From assembly GCA_903902915.1 (NCBI GenBank), contig CAIUWR010000059.1, forward strand, positions 1 to 44,180: a stretch of 44,180 nt of DNA, in the 5' to 3' direction. Origin of the DNA: an uncultured Hyphomicrobiales bacterium (lineage in GTDB: Bacteria; Pseudomonadota; Alphaproteobacteria; Rhizobiales; Beijerinckiaceae). Shown here piece by piece: positions 5,433-44,180 of this stretch. The notes under the pieces were generated by a model. The model worked only from the letters and a program-made list of their open reading frames with translations. It did no database searches and was not told the origin of the DNA. A program made the translations under genes and the position numbers. Every line of letters begins with the position of its first letter. Within the stretch, counting starts at the first letter, position 1.

Positions 5433-5787
5433 GTTTTCGGCCCGGTCCGAACGCGACTTCGAGTTGATCTTCGACCATTTGTTCGAGAGCTATCAGAGTT
5501 TTGGAGAAAGCGTCGAGGAAGCGCTCGATCATGCCCACAGACGCATCCTCGACATCCGCAAGGCTGCCGACACACTCTCTTCTTTCCCCATTCGCGGCAC
5601 GGTGCGCGACGATATCCTGCCCGGGCTTCGCTATCTGAGCATTGATCGAGCGATCTACTGGTTTGACGTGGATGAAGCCGCCGGGAAAGTCCGCATCCTC
5701 GCCGTCTTTTTTGGCGGGCAAGACCATGTTCGGCACATGCTGGTTCGTTTGCTTGGGAGGGACGAGCGGGCTTCAAACGATGGTTAA
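5416..5787 (+). CDS. parE: ParE/RelE-family toxin
   Basis: A 123-residue protein with the RelE/ParE fold pattern. It starts FAIEFSARSERDFELIFDHL, shown as SARSERDFELIFDHL, a first strand plus a helix. A helix with FGESVEEALDHAHRRILDI follows, then the core FPIRGTVRDDILPGLRYLSI and the final strands IYWFDVDE and VRILAVFFGGQDH. The GLRYLSIDRAIYWF block matches ParE toxins, which poison DNA gyrase, although some relatives act as ribosome-dependent nucleases; which applies here cannot be read from sequence. It ends 22 bp before the convergent acpS stop codon. It is probably expressed only together with parD. Confidence 0.82.
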   Translation: MPFAIEFSARSERDFELIFDHLFESYQSFGESVEEALDHAHRRILDIRKAADTLSSFPIRGTVRDDILPGLRYLSIDRAIYWFDVDEAAGKVRILAVFFGGQDHVRHMLVRLLGRDERASNDG

Positions 5788-37864: not shown

Positions 37865-37998
37865 GGTGTCACTTTTCCCACTAACAGCCGGGAACGGCTC
37901 AAAAACCTAACATGCCCCTTCGACGGGCGATGCGGGCAAACAGCATCGATCGCGTCTTTCCCTTGACCCGTCGTGCACGCTACCGCAGATATCGTCGC

Positions 37999-38415
37999 CT
38001 ACCGCTCCAGGTCCCGAGCGGTTGAGCGTTTCCCGTCATACACCCTCCCCATCTGCTCCGCCCACGGCAGATAGGTAGCTTCGACCATCTGTAAAAGCGT
38101 GGCCGACGGCGCCTCACGCCAAAGCAGCAAGCGCTCAAGCACATCGGGCGACAGGTAGGCCAGTCGCATTATGGGGCCTACAAACTGGGTTGAGACCTTC
38201 TCGGCCTTAGCAATATCTTGGATGGTCGCAGCTTCACCGGTCTCCAGCTTTCGCCGCCACGACCAGGCCCGCCCGAGCGCGCGCAGGATATGGGGGGACT
38301 GAACACGAGCCTGAAAATGGGGATCGACGTCGGGCGCCAGAATTTTAGGGCGTCCGTTCTTCCGCTTGAAGGCAATCGGGATGAAGACTTGGATGGTGTC
38401 GTTTTCCTTGCTCAA
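37999..38415 (-). CDS. ParB-like HTH protein of the serine recombinase module
   Basis: A 138-residue protein with a central HTH: AATIQDIAKAEKVSTQFVGP, then IMRLAYLSPDVLERLLLWRE. This resembles the ParB/KorB helix-turn-helix, where S-x-x-x-V-x-x-x-x-R-L precedes L-P-x-x-V. It overlaps the recombinase stop by 4 bp, so it is co-translated. Genes of this kind very often follow DUF2924 and recombinase in alphaproteobacteria, probably as part of the same element, perhaps guiding or regulating recombination. A broken copy of its 3' half lies at 32092-32200. Confidence 0.75.
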   Translation of the reverse strand: MSKENDTIQVFIPIAFKRKNGRPKILAPDVDPHFQARVQSPHILRALGRAWSWRRKLETGEAATIQDIAKAEKVSTQFVGPIMRLAYLSPDVLERLLLWREAPSATLLQMVEATYLPWAEQMGRVYDGKRSTARDLER

Positions 38416-39743
38416 GCGGCAGCCTCCTGAGACTTGGATGCGGTCAGATCGCGCACGAGGCTTCCAACGCCATGATGACGCAGATCAACGGCGATCCCGG
38501 CAGAGCCAACCGTTACCCTGCTGACAAGCAGGCGGGTGATCCGAGCCTGCTCCGCCGGGAAGAGCGACGCCCAGAGGTCATCAAAGCGTGTGAGGGCCCC
38601 AACAACTGCCCTCTCGTCAATGCTGGTCCCCTCCCCTTTGAATGTCTGGACCACACGCGCGGCCACTTCCGGGGTGGCGATCATCCGGCGCATTTCGGCA
38701 ATGACGACGCCGTCCACCATTGCAGCGGACAAGCGGGTTGGACCGGAGCCCGGCGCTGTTATCCGGTTCTGGATGGCGTCCATCGAGACATAATAATGGT
38801 AGAGGCGGTCACCCTTCCGGGTGTAGGTCGGTGTCATCGCTGAGCCCGAGTTCGAAAATATCAGACCCTTCAGCAGGGCCTCCGAGGTGCTGCGGTTTTC
38901 CGCCCGCCGCTCGCGAGGACTTCTCTGCAGCATCGTATGGAGACCGTCCCAGAGCTCCTTGCTGATGATAGCGGTGTGTTCGCCGGGATAGGCAGTACCC
39001 TTATGGACGGCTTCCCCGATGTAGACACGGTTGTTGATGACTTTGTAGATGAAGCCCTTATCGATCCGGCGGCCGCGCTTGTTGGTGACGCCTTCGGCCT
39101 GTAACGCCCGCGCCAACTTTGACGCTGATCCAAGCGAGAGGAAGCGCTCGAAGATCATCCGGACCTTGTCGGCTTCCGGCTCATTGATGACGAGCTTCCG
39201 GTCCTTGACGTCGTAGCCGATGGGGACAAAGCCGCCCATCCACATCCCTCGCTTGCGGGAGGCTGCGAACTTGTCACGGATGCGCTCGCCGATGACCTCG
39301 CGCTCGAACTGAGCAAAGCTCAGCAGGATGTTCAGCGTGAGGCGGCCCATGGACGTCGTGGTGTTGAAGGACTGGGTGACCGAGACGAAGGTCACGTTGT
39401 TCCGGTCAAGCACCTCCACCAATCTGGCGAAATCCATCAGCGAGCGACTGAGGCGGTCGATCTTATAGACGACGATAACGTCGATAAGCCCTTCCTCGAC
39501 GTCGATCAGAAGCTGCTTCAGCGCAGGCCGGTCGAGCGTGCCGCCAGACCAACCCCCGTCATCATAGCGGTCGCGGATGGCAACCCAGCCTTCAGCCCTC
39601 TGGCTGGCTACATAAGCCTCGCAAGATTCCCGCTGAGCGTCGAGGGAGTTGAACTCCATCTCAAGCCCCTCCTCCGACGACTTGCGTGTGTATATGGCGC
39701 AGCGCGAGCGTTTAGGAACCGTGATTGTGGCTGGCTGGCTCAT
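38412..39743 (-). CDS. Large serine recombinase
   Basis: A 443-residue resolvase/invertase-type site-specific recombinase. The catalytic domain shows RCAIYTRKSSEEGLEMEFNS (nucleophile Ser about residue 19), YDDGGWSGGTLDRPALKQLL and VVYKIDRLSRSLMDFARLVE, then FAQFEREVIGERIRDKFAAS. A recombinase domain follows (PIGYDVKDRKLVINEPEADK, VRMIFERFLSLGSASKLARA). A zinc-ribbon-like part (LLKGLIFSNSGSAMTPTYTR) lacks its cysteines. Enzymes of this class integrate or excise elements without needing a tRNA. It overlaps its DUF2924 neighbour by 4 bp and the ParB-like gene by 4 bp. Confidence 0.9.
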   Translation of the reverse strand: MSQPATITVPKRSRCAIYTRKSSEEGLEMEFNSLDAQRESCEAYVASQRAEGWVAIRDRYDDGGWSGGTLDRPALKQLLIDVEEGLIDVIVVYKIDRLSRSLMDFARLVEVLDRNNVTFVSVTQSFNTTTSMGRLTLNILLSFAQFEREVIGERIRDKFAASRKRGMWMGGFVPIGYDVKDRKLVINEPEADKVRMIFERFLSLGSASKLARALQAEGVTNKRGRRIDKGFIYKVINNRVYIGEAVHKGTAYPGEHTAIISKELWDGLHTMLQRSPRERRAENRSTSEALLKGLIFSNSGSAMTPTYTRKGDRLYHYYVSMDAIQNRITAPGSGPTRLSAAMVDGVVIAEMRRMIATPEVAARVVQTFKGEGTSIDERAVVGALTRFDDLWASLFPAEQARITRLLVSRVTVGSAGIAVDLRHHGVGSLVRDLTASKSQEAAA

Positions 39744-40249
39744 GCGGCACCCTTGCTCTTGTCGCGAAAGCCGAAAAAGCGGAACCCGTTCCAGTTCGTG
39801 CCGGTGATTGCTTTTGCGACCGCTGAAAGAGATTTGTACTTCCGCGACTGCCAGTCATAGCCATCCCTGAGGATTGTGACCGTGTGCTCGATCCCATTCC
39901 ATTCGCGCAGCAACTTGGTGCCCGGCATGGGATTGCGCGGATCGACAGCCATCGGCTTACGAACCAATTTGCCTTCAACTTCATCAGCGAGCATGTCAAG
40001 AATTTGGCGCGTATCGCGCGACAGTCCACCATAGCTCAGTTCCTGAATTCTGCTGGCTATGCGGACTTCCAAAAACGCCCTGCTGTTGTTCGGCGCTGCC
40101 GTTGCGAAGAGGCTTGCCCATTTCTCTTTCAACTCTTTCACAGACATGGCTTGCATCGCCGCCAGTCTTGCCAGGACGGTTGCATCCATCTGGGAATTCT
40201 CACCGGGCCTCGGTAGCGCCTGCTCTTTTGGTTTGCTTGGTTTTCTCAT
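39740..40249 (-). CDS. DUF2924 protein of the recombinase module
   Basis: A 169-residue protein. MQAMSVKELKEKWASLFATA, RAFLEVRIASRIQELSYGGL and PGTKLLREWNGIEHTVTILR, plus YKSLSAVAKAITGTNWNGFR and FFGF at the end, match DUF2924. These proteins almost always sit directly before a large serine recombinase. The function is unknown but likely supports recombination. ATG 40249 has GGAAG 6 nt upstream and begins MRKPSKPKEQAL; the longer frame from 40387 has no support. The 58-residue gene ends 2 bp upstream. Confidence 0.85.
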   Translation of the reverse strand: MRKPSKPKEQALPRPGENSQMDATVLARLAAMQAMSVKELKEKWASLFATAAPNNSRAFLEVRIASRIQELSYGGLSRDTRQILDMLADEVEGKLVRKPMAVDPRNPMPGTKLLREWNGIEHTVTILRDGYDWQSRKYKSLSAVAKAITGTNWNGFRFFGFRDKSKGAA

Positions 40250-40251
40250 CG

Positions 40252-40428
40252 TCAGCTTCCACTTCGATTGCGCAGTTTGCGACGAGCAATACCGCTCTTC
40301 AGAGGCGAGAAGTCGACTAAACTGTCTTTGGTTGAAGCAGATAAAGGACTGGACTGTTCGGTGAGGATCCGCTTCAAGCCCGCGCATAAAAGCTGCGCCA
40401 GTTCCTCAAGGCGTTCATCGCGAGCCAT
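40252..40428 (-). CDS. Small protein heading the recombinase module
   Basis: A 58-residue frame starting MARDERLEELAQLLCAGLKR and ending IARRKLRNRSGS, with a hydrophilic amphipathic helix first. Its stop lies 2 bp before the DUF2924 ATG, so coupling is likely. Short genes with a similar LxxLAxxLxxGLxRL opening commonly precede DUF2924-recombinase modules in rhizobia, as I recall. GAGG lies 12 nt upstream, which is weak; an alternative ATG at 40473 would add 15 residues. Confidence 0.55.
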   Translation of the reverse strand: MARDERLEELAQLLCAGLKRILTEQSSPLSASTKDSLVDFSPLKSGIARRKLRNRSGS

Positions 40429-40738
40429 CGGTTCAAATGAGCCTCGGTTGATCGGTTGATGATGGCTGATCATTGAGAGAGTTCGCTTTTCATTTATGGA
40501 AAGCGAAGAATACGAACATTAAAATTCTAATCAATGTAATTATCGCACCTTAAAAACTCCAGCGGATCGTGTCGAAACACAACGCAAGATTGTCATATGG
40601 AAAAATCTTTACACAGCGCTGTCAGATCAGTTGATGTCAGTGCGTTACCGAAGAAAGGAATCCCCGCAGATTCAGTGAACAAACAAGCAGCCGGTTTACG
40701 AGTCACAAACCTGATTTCATCAGTTACCAGCTTACTGG
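40429..40738. other. AT-rich upstream region of the recombinase module
   Basis: About 310 bp without a convincing gene between the recombinase module and the secreted hydrolase. Besides the inverted repeat at 40482-40507 nothing is apparent. A 69-codon frame on the plus strand at 40597 overlaps the hydrolase 3' end and has no recognised family. Confidence 0.45.
40482..40507. promoter_or_regulatory. Inverted repeat upstream of the recombinase module
   Basis: TTCGCTTT, a 10-nt spacer and AAAGCGAA form perfect 8-bp arms, 54 bp before the start of the module's first gene. A regulator operator is the natural reading. Either the module's ParB-like HTH or a phage-type repressor could bind it; this is inference from position. 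Confidence 0.4.
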
Positions 40739-41800
40739 TTATCGCGCCGCCAAGTTTTCTAAAACTTCAAGCAATTTCGCCTTCCAGAACTTGGCAAACC
40801 CGGTAGTGCCGTGCCCGCGTGTGTCAGGGCTTGCAGGAATGATATAAAGCGAACCGCTTTTCACTTTTTTCATTTCACGCTCCATGATGCCAAGTTCCGG
40901 TGGATTGCGCTCGTCATCTGCGGCATTAATCGCAAGCAAAACTGACGTAATCTTTTCAAGGTTTTTTGTGGCGTCGAAATCAGCTGAAGATTCCCATTGA
41001 TACATGAAATCATTCGCATCAGCGTTGAAACTTGCGTTCAATCGATCAAGCGCTAGCTTATCAGATTTTTCGTGCGTGCTTGCGATCTGGTGATATCCAA
41101 GAGTTCCGCCCGAAGTGGCGACGCCGAACATAGCGCTGGCGTAACGGAAGAGCTTCGGCTGCTCTATGTAATCGCCATTCTTCCAATCTGGATCCGTGCG
41201 AACGGATTCGACAAGAAGTCTGCGCATTGCCCAGTTCCGTCCGGCCATTTCTGTTGGCTGCGACGCCATGGGAACAGTGACATCCATAAAGTCGGGATGG
41301 GTTCCCGCCCATAGCCAGGCCTGCATGCCACCCATGGAATTGCCGATGACCAAGTGAGCGTGCTTCACGCCTAACCCTTCTGTGACGAGACGATACTGAG
41401 CCTCAACCATGTCATCGTAGTTATATTTTGGAAACTTCGCCTTCAAACCATCAGATGGTTTTGTGGACTTTCCTGATCCAAGAGCGTCTGGAATGATGAC
41501 ATAGTATTTTGATGCATCAAGCGGTTGCCCCGCGCCAAAAAGCTCCCCAGCGAAATCGGCGGTCAGGAAATTGGCTGCCGATCCATAGGTACCGTGAAGC
41601 AGAATCACAGGCTTTCCATTCGGCGCGCCAATCGTTGTGTAGTGCAGCCTGACATTCTTTAGCGTCTCGCCTGTGTGGAATTTGAATTCAGGAACTGTCC
41701 AATCTCCTCCCTTGGGCACCGGGTAATCAGCAGCATCAGCGACGCCAGAAATTAACGACACCACTGCAGTACCAGCCATTAGGATGTTCTTGACAAACAT
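40739..41800 (-). CDS. Secreted alpha/beta hydrolase, MetX-like
   Basis: A 353-residue protein with a signal peptide (FVKNILMAGTAVVSLISGVA, cleavage near ADA). An alpha/beta-hydrolase fold related to homoserine O-acetyltransferases follows. Landmarks are VILLHGTYGSAANFL, IIPDALGSGKSTKPSDGLKA, nucleophile elbow HLVIGNSMGGMQAWLW (Ser about residue 152), the acid in LLAINAADDERNPPE, and His in PDTRGHGTTGFAKFW. Export makes a role in methionine synthesis unlikely; the substrate is unknown. The ATG at 41800 with AAGGGG upstream is preferred to 41821. It is AT-richer than the flanking ligD and so probably acquired. Confidence 0.85.
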   Translation of the reverse strand: MFVKNILMAGTAVVSLISGVADAADYPVPKGGDWTVPEFKFHTGETLKNVRLHYTTIGAPNGKPVILLHGTYGSAANFLTADFAGELFGAGQPLDASKYYVIIPDALGSGKSTKPSDGLKAKFPKYNYDDMVEAQYRLVTEGLGVKHAHLVIGNSMGGMQAWLWAGTHPDFMDVTVPMASQPTEMAGRNWAMRRLLVESVRTDPDWKNGDYIEQPKLFRYASAMFGVATSGGTLGYHQIASTHEKSDKLALDRLNASFNADANDFMYQWESSADFDATKNLEKITSVLLAINAADDERNPPELGIMEREMKKVKSGSLYIIPASPDTRGHGTTGFAKFWKAKLLEVLENLAAR

Positions 41801-41853
41801 GCGTTTCCCCTTCGTCAGCACCGAACCAGACGCTATCTAGATCGAATATATAC

Positions 41854-44039
41854 CTACATCTCTCGCGCAAACCACCGAATGCGCCCGACGATGTTCATCT
41901 CATCGACCAGGCGCTCATAGGGAGAATAGTGGGTATTGTCGGAAACGATACGCACCTGAGGTGGGTCGCTGTTTGGAATATGCTCCAAGCGTTTCGCTAC
42001 AAGCCCCATACCGTCATGGAGAACGAAGATGCCGGGCGGCGTTGGCATGCGTCGGCTCGTATCGACCAGCACCACGTCGCCACTGTTGAGGGTCGGCGTC
42101 ATACTGTCCCCCTCGACATGCATGATGCGCAGGTTCGAGGGGTCGGTTTTGAGCCCCTGCTTGATCCATGATTTCTGGAAGTGATAGGGCCGCCCGTAAT
42201 CGGGCTCCATATCAATGTGGTTCCCGCCGCCCATGGAAGGCCTGATGTTCACATAGGGTACGGCGACGAAGGCATGGTCCGGATTCTCAAGGATTGGGGA
42301 CTCGCCTTCCACCTCCCCCAAGCGCTGGATGGCCAGGCCAAGCGGACGTTCGCCGTCGCAATAATCCTCCCAAACCGTCGATTTGGCGATCAGCGCGGGA
42401 ACCGTGCGGACCGTGAATGTCGCGGGGTCGAGGCCCTTCTTCACCTGCCCCCAGCCAAGCGGCATGGACACCGGGGCGCCGGGGCGTCCGCGCGGCGACA
42501 GGGGCGCGACCGCCGTCGCCATGCGGTCGTTGCGCAGATAGTCAAGGAAGATGCGGCCCGCGCGCTCCTTCTTGGCCATGTTCAGCAAAAAGCGATGCGG
42601 CGCGTCGGCGGCCATGGCCTTGCAGAGATCGCGGGCGAAGGCTTTGGCCGCAGGCCAATCGACGCCCTGCCCCATCACTGGGGTCACAACATGCAGCCCC
42701 TTGCCGCCCGTGGTCTTGCAGAAGCTCACAAGGCCAAGCTGCGCGAGCCTGTCGCGGATCTCGCGGGCGCTTTCGATCACAGCGGCGAAATCCACGTCGG
42801 GCGCCGGATCGAGGTCGAACACCAACCGGCCCGGCTGCTCCGGCGCGAAGGGCGCGCAATTCCAAGGGTGCAGCTCCACAGCGCCGCTCTGGGCCGCCGC
42901 CACCAGGGCTTCGATCCGGTCGAACTGGAGATAGGGCTTGCGGTCGCCCCAGACCTCGACTTCGGTGATCAGCGCCGACTGGCCCTTGGCGCCGTGGCGC
43001 TGGAAGAAAGTCTGCGCGCCATTGATCCCGTCGGGCATGCGGATCATCGAACAGGGGCGGCCTTTGACATGGGGCAGCATCCACGCGCCCACCGCCTCGT
43101 AATAACGCGCCAGATCGAACTTGGTGACGGGCTTGCCGTCGTTGGCGTCGGGCCAGAGGGGCTTGTCGGCCTGGCTGATGGTGACGCCCATCACGGGCCG
43201 GGAGCCGCGCGGCAGGACGCTTGCGCGCGCGGGCTCGCGCAGGCCGGTCGCCGCCGGGGCCTCAGCCTGCACTTCCGTGGCGGGCTTGTCCTCGCGCAGC
43301 CCCTTGAAGGACGCCTGACGGATGGCGCCGTCGCCGGTGAAGCCCGCATATTCGATCTCGGCGACAAGTTCCGGGCGGACCCAGTGGACCCCTGCGGCCT
43401 TTTTGGGCGCGCCCTTGCCCTTGAACGGGCTGGCGTCCGTCTCCAGCGCCTTCAGGCGCGGCATGACGCGGGCGAGCGCCTCGCGCCCGAAGCCCGTGCC
43501 GATCCGCCCCACATAAACCAGCTGGCCCTCCCGGTTCACACCGGCGATGAGGGAGCGGAAAGCGTCGCCCGTGGTGGTCCAGCCGCCGATCACCACCTCA
43601 TGGCCCTGTCGGCATTTGCACTTCACCCAGCTATCGCCCCGCCCGGAACGATAGGGCGCGTCCAGCCGCTTGGAGACGATCCCTTCCAGATCCATCCGGC
43701 AGGCGGACTTGAGAACGGCCTCCCCGGCGCTGAGGAAATGATCGACGAAGCGGATATTGGCGGGCGCCTTCGCCACAAGAGCCTTCAACCGCGCCTTGCG
43801 CTCCGCAAGCGGAAGCGGGCGCAAGTCCTCGTTGTCCGCGAACAACTGATCGAAGACGAAATAGACCAGATCCCGCGTGGTCCCTTGCGAGATAGCCGCC
43901 TGAAGCGCGGCGAAGTCCGGCGCGCCGGTGTGGTCCAACGCGACGACCTCGCCATCAAGGATCCCATCCGCCAGCCCCGCCCCGGCGGCGACGATTTCGG
44001 GGAATTTCGCAGACCAGTCGAGCCCCTTGCGGGTCAGAA
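41854..44039 (-). CDS. ligD: DNA ligase D fragment (ligase end + polymerase) fused to an S24 peptidase domain
   Basis: LigD carries out bacterial non-homologous end joining with Ku. The frame is open from the IS66 edge at 44039 ([16 protein letters not shown]) and includes the later ligase part ([47 protein letters not shown]). The primase-polymerase domain follows: [26 protein letters not shown] with catalytic acids, [21 protein letters not shown] and the usual tail [20 protein letters not shown]. The adenylation lysine motif (KxDG) and any phosphoesterase domain are lost upstream. After [10 protein letters not shown], near the normal C-terminus, about 150 residues (41854-42318) form an S24 peptidase domain: [20 protein letters not shown] with nucleophile Ser, and [11 protein letters not shown] with Lys. 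If a start remains, TTG 43938 is a candidate. Confidence 0.8.
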
Positions 44040-44180
44040 GTAGCCATGCGGCGAGGACCGCAGTCTACCGGGATGTATCTCCGTTTTGGAGGTTCGCCTT
44101 TTATATGTTTGTTTTTCAGGCTGCCTGAGAGTGGATGATCGGGGCTTGCGGCTTCCAATGCCACGGGAGCAGTTCATCAA
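44040..44180 (-). mobile_element. End of an IS66-family insertion sequence inside ligD
   Basis: The ligD frame breaks at 44039/44040. From there the sequence begins GTAGCCATGCGGCGAGGACC and continues to CTACC at 44069, a terminal repeat-like end typical in length for IS66. A short non-coding stretch and the end of a transposase gene follow. Only one end of the element lies in the window, so the 8-bp target duplication expected for IS66 cannot be checked. Confidence 0.75.
44116..44180 (-). CDS. IS66-family transposase (TnpC), C-terminal end only
   Basis: The last 21 codons read DELLPWHWKPQAPIIHSQAA-stop. I/VDELLPWxW is the hallmark end of IS66 transposases of the TnpC type. The gene enters from the right edge of the window and ends 77 bp before the element edge. 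Activity of the element cannot be judged from this fragment. Confidence 0.88.
   Translation of the reverse strand, partial: DELLPWHWKPQAPIIHSQAA

Follow-up and report, generated by a model that had tools for sequence, protein, structure and literature searches.

An open reading frame joining LigD and S24 sequence

The window, by which we mean the whole stretch of DNA that was analysed (contig C59, complete at 44,180 bp), carries on its minus strand a reading frame (44058–41857, with its stop codon at 41854) in which LigD ligase/polymerase sequence reads into an S24 domain. Over 2.2 kb this frame, which we read as 734 codons and which the open-frame listing gives as 736, contains neither a frameshift nor a stop; the first ATG, GTG or TTG of the listed frame is a TTG at 43938. 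Its larger part (42322–44039, minus strand) is the 3′ two-thirds of a ligD gene, comprising the last part of the ligase domain, the ligase C-terminal domain and the whole polymerase domain, with the gene's own start missing. Pfam accordingly reports a truncated DNA_ligase_A_M domain that begins at profile position 44, followed by DNA_ligase_A_C and then by LigD_Prim-Pol at residues 312–559, where coverage of profile positions 1–249 of 254 (E 8e-85) indicates a complete polymerase (PrimPol) domain. The LigD part as a whole scores 610 bits against the NCBIfam model TIGR02776, for which the cut-off is 373. The smaller part (41854–42315, minus strand) derives from a prophage CI-like repressor: it is the C-terminal S24 domain, without the helix-turn-helix (HTH) half, and is recognized by Pfam as Peptidase_S24 at residues 620–727 (E 2e-12). 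The original prediction of an in-frame fusion between a LigD polymerase and an S24 domain is therefore confirmed at the level of the reading frame, which is open from 44058 to 41854 and crosses the joint without a stop. The joint, expected near 42,318, falls at 42316–42321; the S24 part is indeed less GC-rich than the LigD part (0.576 versus 0.681), and the nucleophile and base motifs said to be kept, EGDSM and VAKRLEHIP, are both present.

The genes that follow the S24 segment, all on the minus strand, belong to a prophage remnant. An alpha/beta hydrolase gene with a GC content of 0.51 (40739–41821) occupies what we describe below as a cargo slot; its GC content is low and, by eye, the N-terminus of its product resembles a signal peptide. 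Then come a DUF2924 gene of the prophage integration module (39740–40387), a large serine recombinase of phrog_95 that is the prophage integrase (38412–39743), and a 138-aa phage protein of phrog_14161 (37999–38415), beyond which DNA homology to a congener (G036) stops near 37916. At its other side the fused frame runs into a repeated element (44040–44180) within which the contig terminates.

Interruption of ligD and its unfused relatives

The missing 5′ third of ligD, with its LigD_N (phosphoesterase) domain, lies near the end of another contig, C81, where it adjoins a divergent ku gene. There the ligD frame stops at a TGA (5685–5687), 21 bp before a repeated element that starts at 5709. The repeat end on C81 has a second copy on contig C27, and that in the window has further copies at the ends of contigs C25 and C95. 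The C81 and window ends are alike at 17 of their 22 terminal bases, as inverted terminal repeats, and each borders the same 8-bp duplication, TTCTGACC, from which the flanks of the copies on C25, C95 and C27 differ. Repeated ends, inverted terminal repeats and a target duplication, the marks of an insertion sequence (IS), are thus all found, and together the repeat ends and the duplication bear the signature of a single IS within ligD; the same IS ends and duplication would also link C81 to C59. We call this element IS66-like, a family suggested by its GTA ends, by the 8 bp that it duplicates and by a terminal stretch of what resembles a transposase reading frame; the assignment is tentative because a search of the assembly for an IS66 transposase gave no match (the control search matched in 4 of 14 control genomes). 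Collapse of the repeat during assembly would explain the missing transposase. The IS end matched no plasmid at E 1e-5. While the IS ends, their duplication and the in-frame stop are read directly from the assembly, the stop on C81 may be erroneous, given that the contig ends close by.

Because the IS begins at 44040, the fused frame in the window lacks the start and first third of ligD. The phosphoesterase domain and HEIKFDGYR, which we take to be the ligase motif with the adenylated lysine, are on C81, across both the stop and the IS, and so are not part of the window protein. Cut by the IS and the in-frame stop, the gene thus encodes no complete LigD, nor a LigD–S24 enzyme with all of the LigD domains. 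No second ligD was found in the genome; the ligase part has a single further match there, a weak one of 39% identity over about 100 residues, which belongs to a separate 564-codon open frame on contig C40. The ku gene (L026:3943–4794, on C81) looks complete, with a 283-aa product that covers positions 2–188 of the 190-position Ku profile, and since it stands beside a broken ligD the strain may possess Ku but no functional LigD.

The two ligD pieces can be read against an 839-aa LigD from the protein database, P0001, which is 98% identical to this ligD and carries no S24 domain. The C81 piece is identical to residues 1–257 of P0001 at 250 of 257 positions, and the window piece to residues 262–838 at 564 of 577. 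P0001 ends in AIQRLGKVR, a normal terminus three residues past the Leu-Gly at which the window turns to repressor sequence, and four more distant LigD genes (L006, L007, L008 and L010) have a similar end point.

The prophage repressor tail and its module

From 42321 downwards the window matches an intact 222-aa HTH–S24 gene of G036 at 92% DNA identity over 466 bp, and the homology stops at 42321. The product of that gene is a transcriptional repressor in PHROGs (phrog_4) and contains HTH_3; the corresponding gene of a second genome, G031, is 80% identical in DNA to the S24 half over 461 bp. When the whole 222-aa repressor was used as the query against the genome under study, only residues 65–222 found a match, and only at the window locus, the HTH half having no match; no second copy of the repressor was found in this genome. 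Against solved structures, compared by sequence, the S24 half had no match at E 0.01. Among plasmids it matched 31 records, the best at 67% in a 4.6-Mb Shinella record, and among phages 260 records, each below 60%, the nearest being CI-like repressors at 33% identity.

We compared the S24 half with 81 distinct related loci, namely the best 80 of 125 relatives together with that of G031 (L029 was dropped as the same record as L032). The EGDSM serine and the VAKR lysine are identical in all 81 and kept in the window, as is every other position that is invariant across this best-80-plus-G031 set. Substitutions assigned to the window lineage comprise 2 nonsynonymous and 7 synonymous changes, against 2 and 14 in the G036 lineage, with 14 unassigned; with 2 against 7, decay is not visible on the window side, which, like the open frame, counts against the reading of the fusion as a relic, although the sample is small. 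Most of the change in S24 may be older than the joint, and the clean frame together with so few S24 changes and no visible decay suggests that the events at this locus may be recent.

The remnant belongs to a prophage-like module that is widespread, mostly in alphaproteobacteria. As seen in the window (37999–42315) and in relatives (L030 and L032–L111), the module consists of a gene of about 240 codons divergent from an HTH–S24 repressor, a cargo slot, DUF2924, the recombinase and the 138-aa protein. The same last three genes stand in the window at 37999–40387 and follow in G036 and G031, where the DUF2924 gene lies 231 bp from the repressor in G031 and is separated from it by 4450 bp of other genes in G036. 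On the other side of the G031 repressor is a phage-like replication module with a Cas4-type exonuclease, a helicase and a Sak4-like protein; neither the phage helicase of G031 nor the divergent 240-aa gene had a match in the genome under study, in searches that were both run without a positive control and whose empty outcome is by itself no sign of absence. Within the best 80 of 125 relatives plus G031, HTH was found at 79 of the 81 loci and LigD at none. The divergent gene, of about 240–253 codons (for example L029:10170–10931), was found at 76, and neither Pfam nor PHROGs gave a match for its copy in G036. DUF2924 was present at 62 loci of this set, the recombinase at 61 and the 138-aa protein at 47, these lower counts being minima because several loci are short or break off close to the repressor. 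The papers on DUF2924 that we found all concern Wolbachia, to judge by their titles.

Between repressor and DUF2924 the interval ranges from 231 to 5440 bp (63 rows, L029 and L032 being one record) and holds variable genes. In BLASTN comparisons of 11 loci, the DNA is about 90–95% identical up to the end of the repressor; where the cargo differs the match is lost in the slot and returns, at 84–89%, shortly before DUF2924. The largest cargo cluster, to which 32 of the 123 cargo ORFs of at least 120 aa belong, is formed by a gene of about 240 codons directly after the repressor (L032:2393–3112 and relatives); the one member scanned had no Pfam match, and this gene may belong to the phage backbone. 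PADLOC models matched 8 of 20 hand-picked cargo proteins, one per locus, at E ≤ 1e-15 (3 of 10 and 5 of 10; counts taken with no control-gene baseline), among them PD-Lambda-4 and RmrA as well as several candidate systems, although 2 RecD-like helicases and 1 HNH match among the eight are weak evidence. Among 70 cargo proteins scanned together (69 from relatives and 1 from the window), models for PifA, OloA/OloB, ShosA and IetA also matched one each. The cargo slot may be a defence-gene hotspot, and the family of prophages from which the S24 half derives, with its variable cargo and many defence-gene matches in relatives, may matter more than the fusion itself.

Origin of the joint and comparison with known systems

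The window and the intact G036 repressor gene both read TTGGGG at 42316–42321 (minus strand) and then diverge, which places the joint inside the repressor gene. The same six bases fit the Leu-Gly codons of the LigD tail, which at this position, compared as protein, reads Arg-Leu-Gly. The origins of the two halves and the joint between them are thus directly observed in the assembly, and the simplest cause of such a joint is a deletion between two short matches, for which an in-frame outcome has one chance in three. We consider it very probable that the ORF is a chimeric remnant, left by a deletion that ran from the last codons of ligD into a prophage repressor, and that ligD is now a pseudogene. 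On this view, a relative of the G036 and G031 prophages would have integrated at a site now beside ligD; an illegitimate deletion at the short common stretch TTGGGG would then have removed the last residues and stop of ligD, the intervening DNA, the left part of the prophage and the HTH half of the repressor, after which the S24 half happened to be in frame. This ligD carries two further disruptions, the IS insertion with its 8-bp target duplication and the in-frame stop just upstream of it, either of which may have preceded or followed the deletion. A deletion is presumably the event, rather than another rearrangement; the missing prophage parts are probably gone from the cell and not merely from the assembly, and the fused ORF is probably not expressed.

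The original prediction had proposed that the fusion could tie an end-joining polymerase to DNA damage sensing, its polymerase coming under a LexA/CI-like domain that dimerises and self-cleaves. In favor of such a protein are the frame that stays open across the joint, the complete polymerase domain and the retained S24 serine and lysine. Against it, the IS and the stop separate the first third of ligD from the rest, and the 98% identical LigD is unfused. Nor did our searches turn up the architecture elsewhere. We searched about 5.8 billion proteins with residues 540–734 of the fused frame, taking as candidates proteins of 0.55–1.75 times the query length that shared short words with it, and none of the 89 matches among 443 candidates spans the joint; no match covers more than 24% of the query or has an S24 domain listed. 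Of 60 related genomes, 42 gave some match and none listed one across the joint, and no title in the literature we found names a LigD–S24 fusion. Moreover, the aligned linker is Met-Gly in 80 of the 81 S24 loci (best 80 of 125 plus G031), whereas the classical S24 cleavage site is Ala-Gly or Cys-Gly. We therefore regard a functional damage-sensing fusion as extremely improbable. The absence of any homologue across the joint, which the prediction had itself named, along with the lack of a transcript, as grounds for rejecting it, extends over the 89 proteins, the 60 genomes and the 81 S24 loci (best 80 of 125 plus G031); of the sequencing error that it also named, no sign came to light at the joint. 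What survives of the interpretation is the alternative offered alongside, a deletion joint that replaced the DNA-binding half of a repressor, which the missing HTH half and the match of S24 to the tail of the G036 repressor favor.

A shorter product would sidestep the lost 5′ third. Translation from an internal ATG at 43191 (codon 290), just 5′ of the polymerase domain, would yield a stand-alone polymerase of about 445 aa with a new tail, in a frame open to its end. However, a simple scan of the 20 bases preceding this ATG showed nothing that resembles a Shine-Dalgarno word, no relative of this form occurs among the 89 protein matches, and a promoter inside the relic would be required, so that we rate such a protein as very unlikely. 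The chance is equally slight that the 3′ part of ligD lives on as a 445-aa end-joining polymerase with the prophage S24 domain as its dimerising or damage-responsive tail; were it true, a dead ligase and a dead prophage would together have given rise to a new repair enzyme. The joint could, alternatively, be an assembly or library chimera, a concern for an assembly fragmented into 102 contigs, but the two sides of the joint share no more than 6 bp, much less than the overlaps usual in assembly, each half of the ORF occurs just once in the genome, and the prophage integrase is on the same contig; an artefact of this kind is highly unlikely.

The LigD–S24 frame is thus real but looks like a relic, most likely formed by deletion into a prophage repressor, rather than a new damage-sensing repair protein. 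Had the fusion worked, it would have tied end joining to damage sensing, and the evidence speaks against this. The case shows that a frame can be open, and its motifs look intact, in what is a relic; the defects here (the IS, the stop and the missing start) lie outside the coordinates originally considered, partly on another contig.

Compared with LigD ligases of non-homologous end joining (TIGR02776), the locus retains the ligase C-terminal and polymerase domains in their usual order and, on C81, a ku gene divergent from ligD; it differs in that the 5′ third is cut off by the IS, an in-frame stop is present and the final residues are swapped for prophage sequence. It resembles a phage CI-like repressor locus (phrog_4, PF00717) in the invariant S24 residues and in where it stands relative to DUF2924 and the serine integrase, which it flanks on the same side as in relatives, whereas the HTH half and the divergent gene are missing and the S24 domain is in frame with ligD. 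IS insertion and deletion can form chimeric pseudogenes, and with these the locus shares the target duplication, the short common sequence at the joint and the missing halves, differing in that the frame happens to stay open over the joint.
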